From Actinomycetota bacterium (GTDB taxonomy: Bacteria > Actinomycetota > CADDZG01 > JAHWKV01 > JAOPZY01): a stretch of 40,807 nt of DNA. Where the stretch lies: the NCBI GenBank assembly GCA_035765775.1, contig DASTWV010000003.1, positions 1 to 40,807 of the forward strand, read 5' to 3'. Within the stretch, counting starts at the first letter, position 1, and the number at the start of each line of letters is the position of its first letter. Position numbers and translations under genes: made by a program. The notes beneath the pieces are model-generated. The model saw only the letters and a list, made by a program, of their open reading frames with translations, ran no database searches and was not told where the DNA came from. Below, in pieces: positions 10,190 through 15,780 of the stretch.

Positions 10190-11422
10190 ATGCGGAAGCT
10201 TCTTGTGTTTGTCGCGCTCTTATCGGTGGTGGCGGCAGGATGCAGCAGTAAAAAGAACAACGCCACCGGCACCACAACAACCGGGGCGCCGCCCACAGCG
10301 CAGGCTCAAGGTCCACAAACCTTCGGCGTGACGCTGGACGGCAAGACCGACGCGTTCAACGGCGAGTTCGGGACCTTCTTCCCCAACAGCCTGTCGGTCC
10401 ACGCCGGCGACACCATCAACTTCAGCCTGCCCCGGTTCTCGGGGGTGCCGCACACCGTCACGCTGGGCACACTGGTGGACAAGGGCGTCGCCCGGTTCGA
10501 GGCCCTGGGGCCGCAGGCGCCCCTGTCCCAGGTGGAGAACGACCCGGCCATCCTCAACCTGCCCGATGCGTTCCCGCACACCGCCGGCAGCGGCCCCCCC
10601 GACGCCAACCAGTCGGCGGGCCAGCCCTGCTACCTGGCCACCGGCGTCCCGCCGCTGTCGCTCTCCGGGGGTGCACCCGCCTGCCCCAAGGTTGCGCAGC
10701 CCGATTTCGACGGGACGCAGTCCTTCTACAACTCCGGGCTCCTCTCCAAGGACGGCGACGCGTTCCCCGTGAAGCTGGCGTCGTCGATCAAGCCCGGCAC
10801 GTACAGCATCATCTGCCTGATCCACCGCGGCGGCATGACGGCCAAGATCACGGTGGTCCCTCCGAGTCAGTCGGTCCCGGCACCGGCAGCGGTGACCGCC
10901 AACGGCACCAAGCAGTTCAATGACGTGGTGGCCCGGATGACGCCGCTGGCGCAGGCCGCCCAGGTCACCTCGACGACGAACACCGTGGTCAACGTCGGCA
11001 GCTTTGACACCCAGTCGGACAACGTCATCGCTGACTTCGGCCCCAAGTCGCTGTCGGTGCCGGTGGGTGCCACCGTGACGTTCACGTTTGCGGCGTTCCA
11101 CACGCTGGCCTTCAACGCCCCGGACAGCGCCGTAGGCATCATGTCGAAGGACCCCAACGGGGTTGTCCATCTCGCCGCCGGCGGGGCGCCGGTCGGCTGG
11201 TCCGTGCCGCCGGCGTGGTCGCTGTTCCCGCAGCCCGTGACCCAGACCGCGGCATCGGCCGACCTCGGGTCGTACAGCGGGACCGGAGAGCGCAACACCG
11301 GGCTCATCGGCTCCATCCCGCCGGCCGTCTTCAGCGTCACGGTGAAGTTCACGCAGAAGGGGACCGTACCGATCCGCTGCCTGGTCCATCCCGAGATGAA
11401 GGGTGAAGTGAAGGTCGGCTGA
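10190..11422 (+). CDS. Lipoprotein with two cupredoxin (plastocyanin-like) copper domains
   Basis: 410 residues, exported and lipid-anchored: signal peptide ending in lipobox VAAGC with Cys18. Two cupredoxin domains follow a Thr/Pro-rich linker. Both keep a full type 1 copper ligand set: His88, Cys209, His212 and Met216 in the first (CLIHRGGM), and His304, Cys397, His400 and Met403 in the second (CLVHPEM). The role should be extracytoplasmic electron transfer or copper handling. The next gene, overlapping its stop codon, is a giant multicopper oxidase, so this lipoprotein may be its electron donor or copper chaperone; that is inference. A strong terminator hairpin follows its stop. Confidence 0.88.
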   Translation: MRKLLVFVALLSVVAAGCSSKKNNATGTTTTGAPPTAQAQGPQTFGVTLDGKTDAFNGEFGTFFPNSLSVHAGDTINFSLPRFSGVPHTVTLGTLVDKGVARFEALGPQAPLSQVENDPAILNLPDAFPHTAGSGPPDANQSAGQPCYLATGVPPLSLSGGAPACPKVAQPDFDGTQSFYNSGLLSKDGDAFPVKLASSIKPGTYSIICLIHRGGMTAKITVVPPSQSVPAPAAVTANGTKQFNDVVARMTPLAQAAQVTSTTNTVVNVGSFDTQSDNVIADFGPKSLSVPVGATVTFTFAAFHTLAFNAPDSAVGIMSKDPNGVVHLAAGGAPVGWSVPPAWSLFPQPVTQTAASADLGSYSGTGERNTGLIGSIPPAVFSVTVKFTQKGTVPIRCLVHPEMKGEVKVG

Positions 11423-14400
11423 ACCACCGCCTCACGAAGCGCCCACCGCGGCCCGCGCTCTGCGCGGCCGCGGTGGGCCTTCTTGCACTCGGATTGCCGG
11501 TGGGTACCGGATCGGCCGCCCCGGCGGCGGTCCCACCCGCGCCTGCGAGAGCAGCCGCCGGGCCGCCGACCACCCCGGCCCACGCCGAGTCTGAAGGCTT
11601 CCTGCTCCGCGCCGCGCAGGGTGAGAGCGTGCGGCCGGGGCCGGCCTGCCCGGCCGGCGCACCGGTACGCAGCTATGACGTCGCCGCGATCGGCGTGGAC
11701 ATCACCCTCAACCGCTACCTGGACCACGACCCCCTGGGCGAGATGTTCGCTCTGACCGCGGATCTTCCCCGGGTTCGAGCGGAAGACGCGGCCAACGCCC
11801 GCGCCCGGGCGGCGGGCGGGCCGCTGGTGGTGACCGCCACCGCCGGCTCGACGGTCACGGGTGGGGTGCTGGACTCCGCAGTAACCATCGGGCTCCAGGG
11901 CGACGCCATCCAGCCGCTCACCCTGCGGGTCCGCCAGGGCGAGTGCCTGCGCATCACGCTCCACAACCAGTTGCCGCGCGGTGAGCCGGTCGAGCTCCAC
12001 CTCCACGGGTCGTCGCTGACGGTGCGCGGGGGCGGTCCGGCGACGGCGGCGAACCCGGCTGCCACCGCCGGCCCGGGCGGGACCGTCACCTACGAGTGGG
12101 CGGTCGGTGCCCGCGAGCAGCCGGGCACCCACTACTTCCATTCCCATGCCCTCGAGCGCACCCAGACCGACCACGGGCTCTTCGGGGCGGTGATCGTGGA
12201 ACCGGCCGGGTCCAGCTGGCTCGACCCGGCCACCGACCACCCGCTCACCACCGGGTGGGCCGCCGTCGTCGTACCGCCCGATGCCGGTGCATTCCGGGAG
12301 TTCGTCCTCTACTACCACGAGATCGGCGACGAGAACTACCAGCTGCTGGACCGCTCGGACAACTTCATCCCGCTGGTCGACCCGGAGCTGGGGGCCTACC
12401 GCCCCGCCGCCCGCGCCCTGAACTACCGCAGCGAGCCGTTCGCCAACCGCATGAGCCTGCAGAAACTCGTCGACGGCGAGTTCGACGAGTCGGCGTCGTA
12501 CAGCTCCGCCGTCTTCGGCGACCCGGCGACCCCGCTGATGCGCTCGTACCTGGGCGAACGGGTGATCCAGCGCATCGTGCATGCCGGGGCCGAGGTCCTC
12601 CACGTCCACCACGTCCACGGCGGGTCGATCCGCTGGCATCGCCAGCCGGGCCTGGCCCCCGCCGATCCCCCGGGGCTCACGAAGCACCCGCCCCTGCTGC
12701 CCGGGGACTCCGACCTTACCGACGCCCAGGCGATCGGCCCGTCGGAGACCTTCGACACCGAGAACGAGTGCGGCGCGGGCGGCTGCCAGCAGTCCGCCGG
12801 CGACTTCATGTACCACTGCCATGTCGCCCACCACTACTTCGCCGGCATGTGGGGGATCTGGCGGGTCTACAACACCCTCCAGGCGCCCGGCTCGCAGACC
12901 GATGACCTCACCCCCCTGCCCGAGTTGCCCGGGCGCACCGGGGACACACCGGCCGCGGTGGCGTCCGATCAGCTCGTCGCCGCCCACGCGACCGCCGGCC
13001 CCGCCGGCCAGCCCCTGACGGCCAGCACCCTGGCGGGATGGGTGGAACAGCAGCTCCCGCCCCCGGGCGTGCCGAAGGGCTACGACGCCGCCGTGATGGA
13101 CTGGGCCCGCCAGGGGGACCGGTACCTCGCCCCGGCGGAAGATACCCGGGCATGGCCCGGTTACCGACCCATGGCGCCGGGCACACGGCCCCCGATCCTC
13201 TTCGACGCCCGGACCGGCCTCGTGGCCTACCCGCTGCTGCAGCCGCACTTCGGCAGCCGCCCGCCCTTCGCCCCCAACCACGGGCCGGCCCCCTTCCTGG
13301 ATCCGACGCCGAACGGGGCCGACCCCCCGCCGCCCGGGGGGAGCGGCCCGTTCAGCGTGTGCCCAACCGGGACGCGCCCCGACGAGCTGGCGATCAACGC
13401 CATCACGGTGCCCCTGACCCTGAACCGCAAGGAGAACCTCACCGACCCCACCGGCGAGCTGTACGTCCTGCGCGACCAGGAGGCGGCGGTCCGGGCGGAG
13501 GGAGGCGATGCCCTGCGCCGGCCCCTGGCCATCCGGGCCAATGCGGGCCAGGACTGCGTCGACGTCCTGTTCCGCAGCGAGCTGGAGGACAACGCGATCA
13601 ACCACATGTTCGCCAAGGCGGACATCCACATCCATTTCGTTCAGTTCGATGTGCAGGGCAGTGACGGGGTGGACACCGGCTTCAACTACGAGCAGGGGGT
13701 GCGCCCCTACACCGTCGAGGGGGAACGCCTTGCCGCTCCCACCCCGGCGGGGGCCACCACCGCCGTCCTGGGATCCACCACCCGCTTCCAGCCCGGGGAG
13801 GTCGTGGGGGTGGGCATGGACCAGGACGCCAGCTTCGAGGCCCGCAGGATCGCCGCGGTCCAGGGGACGACGCTGGTCTTCGACCGGCCGCTGGCCTTCC
13901 CCCACGGGGCGGGCGAGATCGCCAGCACCGAGTTCGTGCGCTACCGCTGGTACCCCGACGTCGAGTTCGGCACCGCCTACTTCCACGACCACGTCAACGC
14001 GCTGTCCTCGTGGGCGCACGGCTTGTTCGGTGCCCTGATCGCCGAGCCGCCGGACTCCAGCTACCACGACCCGCAGACCGGCGCGGCGCTGCCCAGCGGC
14101 CCGGCCGCCGACATCCACACCACCGGCACCGCCTCGGCGGACGTGCGCGGGAGCTTCCGGGAGCAGGTGATGTTCATCCAGGACGACAACGCCATCACCT
14201 CGGTAGGGCGGTCCTCGGGCAGCTCGCTCAACCTGCGGGTCGAGCCGCTGGACGACCGCACAGGGAACCCCGCCGAGCTGTTCAGCAGCACGCTCTACGG
14301 CGACCCGGAGACCCCGGTCATCCGGGCCTACCTCGGGGATCCGGTGGTGGTCCGCACCCTGGTGGCCGCCACCAACGACGTGCACACCTGGCATATCGAC

Positions 14401-15780
14401 GGGCACAGCTTCCGGGCGGAGTCCTTCGACAGCCGGGCGCCGCCGGTGGACACCATCCACGTCGGGATCTCTGAGCGCTACGACCTGAGCATCCCGGCGG
14501 CCGGTGGGGCGCAGCGCCTCCCCGGTGACTACCTCTATTACGACGGCCGCTCGTACAAGCTCCGGGAAGGGGCCTGGGGGCTGCTGCGCGTGCTGGCCCA
14601 GCCCACCCCGTCGCTGCAGCCGTTGCCCGGTCACGAATCCCTACCCGTCCCGGCCTCCAGCGTCTGCCCGGCCGGTGCCCCGGGGCGTACGTTCTCGGTG
14701 GCCGCCCTGGCGGTGCCGCTCCCGATGCTGGCCACCACCTCGCCCCCCCGGATGGGCAAGGTCTTCGTCATGGAATCCAGCGTGGCGTCGGTGGCGTCGG
14801 GCCGCACGGCACCCGGGCCGCTGGTCCTGCATGCCGATGTGGGGGACTGCATCACCGTGCACCTGCGCAACGCCACGGGGGGTCCCGTGTCGCTGCATCC
14901 CGACCAGCTGGCCTTCGACCCGGCCCGCTCTGCGGGAGTCGCGGCCGGCGCGGAGCCGGTGCAGGCCGCCCCGCCGGGCGGGACCTACACCTACACCTGG
15001 TACGCGCCACCCGAGGTCGGACCCACCGCCGCACTCCTGCAGGACTTCGGCGACCCGCTGCACAACCTGGGGGCGGGGCTCTACGGTGCGGTGATCGTGG
15101 GCCCCCGGGGAGCGACCTACCGGGATCCGGGAACCGGTGCCGACGCCTCGGCGACCTCGTCGTGGGCAGTCGACGTCCACACCGCCTCCGGCTCGTACCG
15201 GGACTTCTCGTTGTTCCTGCAGGACGAGGACGCCGGCATCGGGACCCACCGGATGCCCTACACCACCAGGGTGGACGGCCCGGTCGGCATCAACTACCAG
15301 GCGACGCCGTTCACCGGGCCGCGCCCCGCGGCGGCTAGCACGCCGGTGCTCATGGCCCTGGCGGGGGACCCGGTCCACATCCACGTCCTGGTTCCCTTCA
15401 GCGAGCAGGACCAGGTCTTCAGCGTGGAGGGCCAGCGGTGGCCGGTCGAGGCCGGCGTCCCGGGCTCCACCCTGGTGAGCTCGCTGCAGGTGGGCGCCGA
15501 CGAGGCCGTCACCCTGGTCCTCGCTGGCGGCGCGGGGAGCGGGCCGGGGGTCTACGAGTACGGCGACGCCCGGGCGCCCTACCGGGAGGCGGGGATGTGG
15601 GGCACCTTCCGGGTGAGCTGCCCCGGAGCGCTGCCCATCCGGCCCCTGGCCTCCTCGACAACCCCGGCCGCGTGCGCCGGCGCTCCAACCCTCGTGCGCC
15701 GGGCTGCTCTCCCGGTGGCCGTCGTGGCCGGTGGGGGTGCCGTCCTGGTTGCCCGGAGGCGCCGGCGCCAGCCTCGCTAG
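11419..15780 (+). CDS. Six-cupredoxin-domain multicopper oxidase, secreted and C-terminally anchored
   Basis: About 1453 residues from CTG 11419, or 1435 from GTG 11473. Three repeats of a two-domain unit each open with a CPAGAP-like motif. Unit 1 keeps HLH (194, 196), HYFHSH (238-243), HVHHVH (395-400) and HCHVAHHYFAGM (466-477). Unit 2 keeps HIH (737, 739), HDH (856, 858) and HTWHIDGH (989-996) but has lost the HCH segment. Unit 3 has lost nearly all ligands. This is a ceruloplasmin/MnxG-like plan, able to oxidise metals (Mn, Fe, Cu) or organics; the substrate is unknown. The C-terminus has a TM helix then RRRRRQPR. The CTG start is preferred because it supplies the basic n-region LNHRLTKRPPRP of a signal peptide, overlaps the previous stop (CTGA) and follows GAAGG. 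Confidence 0.88.
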   Translation: MNHRLTKRPPRPALCAAAVGLLALGLPVGTGSAAPAAVPPAPARAAAGPPTTPAHAESEGFLLRAAQGESVRPGPACPAGAPVRSYDVAAIGVDITLNRYLDHDPLGEMFALTADLPRVRAEDAANARARAAGGPLVVTATAGSTVTGGVLDSAVTIGLQGDAIQPLTLRVRQGECLRITLHNQLPRGEPVELHLHGSSLTVRGGGPATAANPAATAGPGGTVTYEWAVGAREQPGTHYFHSHALERTQTDHGLFGAVIVEPAGSSWLDPATDHPLTTGWAAVVVPPDAGAFREFVLYYHEIGDENYQLLDRSDNFIPLVDPELGAYRPAARALNYRSEPFANRMSLQKLVDGEFDESASYSSAVFGDPATPLMRSYLGERVIQRIVHAGAEVLHVHHVHGGSIRWHRQPGLAPADPPGLTKHPPLLPGDSDLTDAQAIGPSETFDTENECGAGGCQQSAGDFMYHCHVAHHYFAGMWGIWRVYNTLQAPGSQTDDLTPLPELPGRTGDTPAAVASDQLVAAHATAGPAGQPLTASTLAGWVEQQLPPPGVPKGYDAAVMDWARQGDRYLAPAEDTRAWPGYRPMAPGTRPPILFDARTGLVAYPLLQPHFGSRPPFAPNHGPAPFLDPTPNGADPPPPGGSGPFSVCPTGTRPDELAINAITVPLTLNRKENLTDPTGELYVLRDQEAAVRAEGGDALRRPLAIRANAGQDCVDVLFRSELEDNAINHMFAKADIHIHFVQFDVQGSDGVDTGFNYEQGVRPYTVEGERLAAPTPAGATTAVLGSTTRFQPGEVVGVGMDQDASFEARRIAAVQGTTLVFDRPLAFPHGAGEIASTEFVRYRWYPDVEFGTAYFHDHVNALSSWAHGLFGALIAEPPDSSYHDPQTGAALPSGPAADIHTTGTASADVRGSFREQVMFIQDDNAITSVGRSSGSSLNLRVEPLDDRTGNPAELFSSTLYGDPETPVIRAYLGDPVVVRTLVAATNDVHTWHIDGHSFRAESFDSRAPPVDTIHVGISERYDLSIPAAGGAQRLPGDYLYYDGRSYKLREGAWGLLRVLAQPTPSLQPLPGHESLPVPASSVCPAGAPGRTFSVAALAVPLPMLATTSPPRMGKVFVMESSVASVASGRTAPGPLVLHADVGDCITVHLRNATGGPVSLHPDQLAFDPARSAGVAAGAEPVQAAPPGGTYTYTWYAPPEVGPTAALLQDFGDPLHNLGAGLYGAVIVGPRGATYRDPGTGADASATSSWAVDVHTASGSYRDFSLFLQDEDAGIGTHRMPYTTRVDGPVGINYQATPFTGPRPAAASTPVLMALAGDPVHIHVLVPFSEQDQVFSVEGQRWPVEAGVPGSTLVSSLQVGADEAVTLVLAGGAGSGPGVYEYGDARAPYREAGMWGTFRVSCPGALPIRPLASSTTPAACAGAPTLVRRAALPVAVVAGGGAVLVARRRRRQPR
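11441..11484 (+). terminator. Intrinsic terminator inside the multicopper oxidase signal-peptide region
   Basis: GCCCACCGCGG and CCGCGGTGGGC pair outside, and CCGCGC and GCGCGG pair inside around a TCT loop: about 17 bp with one bulged C (11441-11478). CTTCTT follows at once. This is the strongest terminator-shaped sequence seen in the window. It lies 19 bases after the lipoprotein stop and, if the oxidase starts at CTG 11419, within its coding sequence. Translating ribosomes would then open the stem and allow read-through. Confidence 0.7.

Follow-up and report, generated by a model that had tools for sequence, protein, structure and literature searches.

A cupredoxin lipoprotein-multicopper oxidase junction in an actinobacterial genome, with a very likely CTG start and a strong hairpin just past the lipoprotein stop codon

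Intrinsic (Rho-independent) terminators combine a stable GC-rich stem-loop with a U-tract, and the latter is reportedly needed by mycobacterial RNA polymerase, to judge from the title of a 2014 paper by Czyz et al. (cited in PMC10937400). Hairpins between genes can also act on the message itself, the Rhodobacter puf intercistronic hairpins being known to protect mRNA from 3′ exonucleases. Two further systems involve translation across the junction. In stop-start overlap coupling, termination at one gene is followed by reinitiation at the next through an ATGA or GTGA overlap (PMC6728339), and the mycobacterial work covers only RTGA. In translation-coupled attenuation, for which E. coli pyrBI is the precedent of a terminator within a translated leader, ribosomes may block folding of the hairpin; position experiments with E. 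coli tR2 indicate that ribosomes repress the terminator within about 30 bp of the stop codon, with efficiencies of 0.12 to 0.8 at 17-18 bp, and that a start codon 30 bp upstream of the terminator cut termination only about 10% (PMC4824070).

The junction described here lies in a 40,807-nucleotide stretch of DNA (the window), contig C3 of a high-GC genome assembly of 3.6 Mb; the closest relatives with names that a search turned up are metagenome assemblies of actinobacteria. Its features are as follows.

10190-11422, plus strand: cupredoxin lipoprotein gene, 410 aa, with a lipobox-like MRKLLVFVALLSVVAAGC and the stop codon TGA at 11420-11422 (Pfam Copper-bind, 1.2e-06)
11419-15780, plus strand: giant multicopper oxidase gene, 1453 aa counted from CTG (Pfam Cu-oxidase_3, 2.5e-23; Cu-oxidase_2, 3.3e-15)
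11419-11421, plus strand: CTG, proposed oxidase start codon, overlapping the lipoprotein stop as CTGA
11419-11517, plus strand: predicted signal peptide codons MNHRLTKRPPRPALCAAAVGLLALGLPVGTGSA, cleavage being expected after GSA; the part within the hairpin codes for RPPRPALCAAAVG
11441-11478, plus strand: stem-loop of 17 bp, about −39 kcal/mol, lengthened to 11437-11481 by GAAG/CTTC pairing
11473-11475, plus strand: GTG, nearest canonical oxidase start, within the 3′ arm of the hairpin and yielding no charged n-region
11479-11486, plus strand: CTTCTTGC, weak U-tract, 4 T of 8

The oxidase appears from profile comparison to be a distant relative of MnxG, with an NCBIfam match of 1.9e-32 and 111 bits that does not reach the NF041487 cut-off of 3100 bits. 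The group to which it belongs consists of rare giant multicopper oxidases, and relatives 57-62% identical were found in only five other genomes. The 4-nt overlap with TGA (CTGA, 11419-11422) is that of stop-start coupled genes, but the start codon in it is CTG rather than ATG or GTG; in the sampled part of the genome (1.47 of 3.60 Mb, genes called with a simple home-made caller), such overlaps are GTGA in 74 pairs, ATGA in 60, and TTGA in 5. The hairpin resembles an intrinsic terminator in having a GC-rich stem soon after a stop codon but differs in its weak U-tract and in its location in the codons of the next gene. With a CTG start it would lie in a translated stretch, where ribosomes could block its folding as in attenuation; however, it is placed between two structural genes, whereas the pyrBI type operates in a short leader ORF, and no pause site or signal was identified at the junction. 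As with the puf hairpins, a strong hairpin after the first cistron could set unequal levels, although the one considered here is coding.

The oxidase very likely starts at CTG 11419, as judged from its reading frame and signal peptide. The frame is open after an in-frame TGA at 11404, and the codons from there to the hairpin (AGT GAA GGT CGG CTG AAC CAC CGC CTC ACG AAG CGC) include no ATG, GTG, or TTG, CTG 11419 being the sole NTG codon. Read from this CTG, the protein opens MNHRLTKRPPRPALCAAAVGLLALGLPVGTGSA-APA, its n-region carrying a charge of +4 and its hydrophobicity peaking at 2.54. On the coordinates, about 7 unpaired bases would separate the expected edge of the footprint at CTG from the stem, and GTG 11473 would be buried in the stem. 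If the oxidase instead started at this GTG, the hairpin would be an intergenic terminator that also blocks translation and the open frame upstream would be accidental. The codon is canonical, the in-frame stretch that precedes it is short (18 codons, 11419-11472) and weakly coding-like in codon preference, and the oxidase of one relative (G206, below) likewise begins at an ATG after its hairpin; these points are opposed by the loss of the charged n-region, a hydrophobicity peak of only 1.82, the presence of a charged stretch right before the hydrophobic core in 5/5 relatives, and the location of the codon in the stem, where no Shine-Dalgarno precedes it. We consider a start at GTG 11473 very unlikely. 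The first-pass annotation had proposed CTG 11419 as the only frame giving a proper signal peptide and had described GTG 11473, in the 3′ arm, as the nearest standard start and one without a basic n-region. Both statements were borne out, and what had seemed the boldest part of that annotation is the best supported, because no other start retains the signal peptide and several genes of the genome need CTG, which points to a wider property of the lineage.

Five genes outside the junction have apparent CTG starts.

L143:12201: CoaE, Pfam profile position 2 at residue 3
L096:5957, minus strand: FhaA, profile position 1 at residue 4
L108:2166, minus strand: Cas4, profile position 3 at residue 6
L073:4860, minus strand: TrpF, at a CTGA overlap, profile position 1 at residue 10
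L131:13532: GT4 glycosyltransferase, at a CTGA overlap, with a less exact N-terminal match

In each of these, ATG, GTG, and TTG are absent from the in-frame stop to 22-39 codons into the protein, and CTG stands immediately ahead of the N terminus of the family; conserved residues at the N terminus would be lost with the first canonical start. In CoaE, an in-frame TAG lies two codons ahead of the CTG, and the first canonical start would remove the P-loop. TrpF of G001, which belongs to another genus of the same family (L182), is again devoid of ATG, GTG, and TTG and keeps the CTGA overlap with the upstream gene, whose short peptide end matches in the two genomes (ALRPR in G001, GLRPR in the present genome); TrpF of order-level relatives starts with ATG or GTG. 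Weaker candidates for CTGA starts are an amidohydrolase (L124:7466, minus strand) and an ApbE-like protein (C59:146259, L078). Examples that were considered and dropped are HemL and an ABC-2 membrane protein, which have canonical in-frame starts 3 and 7 codons upstream of the CTG, respectively, and HemC and a carboxyltransferase, which have a usable canonical start close by. Elsewhere CTG starts are very rare: a switch from AUG to CUG was found in 2 of 61,358 reconstructed AUG starts (PMC5622118), and in mycobacterial start-codon selection CTG shows no enrichment, at 0.03% (PMC4633059). Taken with the oxidase, the five genes suggest that this family probably employs CTG regularly as a fourth start codon, at CTGA overlaps (oxidase, TrpF, glycosyltransferase) as well as at ordinary sites (CoaE, FhaA, Cas4), and that in the oxidase this weak start is joined by an output-limiting hairpin in the early codons.

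Two other genes of the genome may be recorded here. In SelD (L142, about 8380, minus strand), a TGA lies in frame where Sec would be encoded (SHGAG*ACKLGP), and the protein is a predicted selenoprotein, tRNA-SeC being present in the sampled genome. The frame of prfB, encoding RF2 (L090, about 15147, minus strand), opens ...STFDVPAK, as would be expected if the gene has its usual programmed frameshift at CTTTGAC.

The hairpin begins 18 nt past the lipoprotein stop and consists of 13 bp, a bulged C at 11454, 4 bp, and a TCT loop, with CTTCTTGC directly 3′ of the stem; the coordinates and length of about 17 bp given in the first-pass annotation were correct throughout. Its folding energy is −40.3 kcal/mol over 46 nt, as against −21.4 ± 3.2 kcal/mol in dinucleotide shuffles (z = −5.9, 0/300) and −25.0 ± 3.8 kcal/mol in synonymous recodings of the same peptide, sampled at random using the codon usage of the genome, none of which matched the real hairpin (z = −4.0, 0/3000); for the 106-nt region that contains it, the folding z is also −4.0. 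The hairpin thus far exceeds both chance and what the coding sequence requires. In the 1.47 Mb sampled, energies of −40 kcal/mol or lower occur in 4 of 1213 post-stop regions, the junction hairpin being one of them, and in 0 of 1027 intragenic controls. At −34 kcal/mol or lower the counts are 17/1213 and 2/1027, so that in this organism very strong hairpins are associated with the regions behind stop codons. An origin as a dispersed palindromic repeat was ruled out, there being no second copy in the 1.47 Mb, and an Rfam search of the junction gave no match.

Whether the hairpin acts as a transcription terminator is uncertain. It had been described as a strong intrinsic terminator, and of this description the strength of the hairpin stands but the terminator tail does not: CTTCTTGC has only 4 T in 8, and the hairpin is for this reason absent from the list produced by the terminator scan. 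The tails of strong post-stop hairpins in the sampled genome likewise show no T enrichment, which leaves a terminator role for them putative. Where termination sites have been mapped in M. tuberculosis, the sequence on the 3′ side of the hairpins also lacks a motif (PMC10937400). A paralogue of the lipoprotein gene on contig C13 (41431-42330, minus strand) stands alone, the next gene in that direction being 357 bases away, and has a hairpin of −35.4 kcal/mol (z −5.5) 17 nt past its stop. In the relative G214 (L067), a GC stem (GGCGTCCCCC...GGGGGACGC) followed by TTGTTCTTT lies 21 nt past the lipoprotein stop and upstream of the oxidase (z −5.5) and has the appearance of a textbook terminator. 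The C13 hairpin and the G214 terminator favor a putative 3′-end function for the lipoprotein gene.

Six family members were found in all. The expectation that relatives would keep both the CTG frame and the hairpin was not upheld. In G208 (L065) the oxidase has a GTG start 39 nt past the stop and the hairpin is absent, and in G206 (L066) an ATG start lies downstream of a long imperfect hairpin, an arrangement that had been named in advance as evidence against the first-pass proposal. In G214, the frame is open from GTG 2131, before the hairpin, but that stretch is low in third-position G+C and CTG 2212, after the hairpin, is an equally good start; G214 is thus an ambiguous second candidate for a frame that passes through the hairpin. 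In G042 (L068), which was counted neither way because the lipoprotein gene is broken in frame on its contig, the junction hairpin is not significant and no ATG, GTG, TTG, or CTG occurs at a sensible place. The break is at about 5529 in L016, where conspicuous TTA leucine codons, often in TTAGG, may indicate an assembly oddity. In G041 (L069), CTG 1234 fits and forms a CTGA overlap with a 13-codon ORF, there is no lipoprotein gene upstream, and one extra base would put GTG 1209 in frame. From these comparisons, the combination of a CTG frame with a hairpin through which it passes is not conserved, and the occurrence of a 3′ hairpin between the two genes is patchy among the relatives.

The reading that we put forward, with about even confidence, is that the hairpin at 11441-11478 belongs to the 3′ end of the lipoprotein gene and is overrun by a coupled, CTG-started oxidase frame. 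In a two-gene operon of this kind, ribosomes finishing the lipoprotein at TGA 11420-11422 would start again at CTG 11419, which overlaps this stop, and the oxidase would be made with an ordinary Sec signal peptide. The hairpin would most likely be a partial transcription stop, a barrier to 3′ exonucleases, or both, leaving more lipoprotein mRNA than oxidase mRNA and keeping the oxidase below the lipoprotein; termination may be reduced by a ribosome that follows RNA polymerase closely. It should be noted that the tail of 4 T in 8, with the reported U-tract requirement of the mycobacterial polymerase, the absence of the hairpin in G208 and its lack of significance in G042, and the weakly coding-like codon preference of 11419-11472 count against this reading.

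The hairpin might be purely a processing or stability element that shields the lipoprotein mRNA from 3′ exonucleases after cleavage. In favor of this are its extreme stem with a poor U-tract and the general lack of T-tails among the post-stop hairpins of this genome; however, the G214 hairpin at the same place has a T-rich tail, and this explanation seems doubtful to us. A translation-dependent attenuator, in which the terminator is blocked only by ribosomes that have re-initiated at CTG and enter the stem and the ratio of lipoprotein to oxidase follows translation, was the original proposal and is in our estimate similarly improbable. Its anatomy fits, the hairpin being located in the codons after the overlap, and a distance of 18 nt past the stop falls in the zone for which the E. 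coli efficiencies were obtained, which makes it physically plausible, with pyrBI as a precedent; against it are the weak U-tract, the lack of conservation of hairpin and overlapping frame in relatives, and the absence of an alternative structure, as well as a pause site, among the features identified at the junction. Because a new start 30 bp upstream lowered termination in E. coli by only about 10%, release by oxidase translation is disfavored unless re-initiation by the same ribosome is immediate, and, given the distance of 18 nt, lipoprotein ribosomes are the likelier modulator, if there is any. Least probable of all, to the point of being hardly credible, is a bypass of the stop codon with a frameshift at GGC TGA that fuses the lipoprotein to the oxidase, CTG then not being a start. 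An AUGA pair in M. tuberculosis has been reported to be bypassed without peptide release (PMC11260477), but here the signal peptide would end up in mid-protein, no slippery heptamer is seen, and other CTG genes (CoaE, FhaA, Cas4) start without an overlap of this kind.

Under the preferred reading of a coupled frame overrunning the lipoprotein 3′ hairpin, the junction offers a small, self-contained system in which to ask if the proportions of two partner proteins are set by a hairpin in the early codons behind a stop-start overlap. If CTG is indeed a regular start codon in this family, gene finders that admit only ATG, GTG, and TTG would cut off signal peptides and catalytic N termini in the lineage, so that CoaE would lose its P-loop and TrpF its KICGIT motif, and coupled re-initiation would tolerate a codon that is barely functional alone in related actinobacteria.
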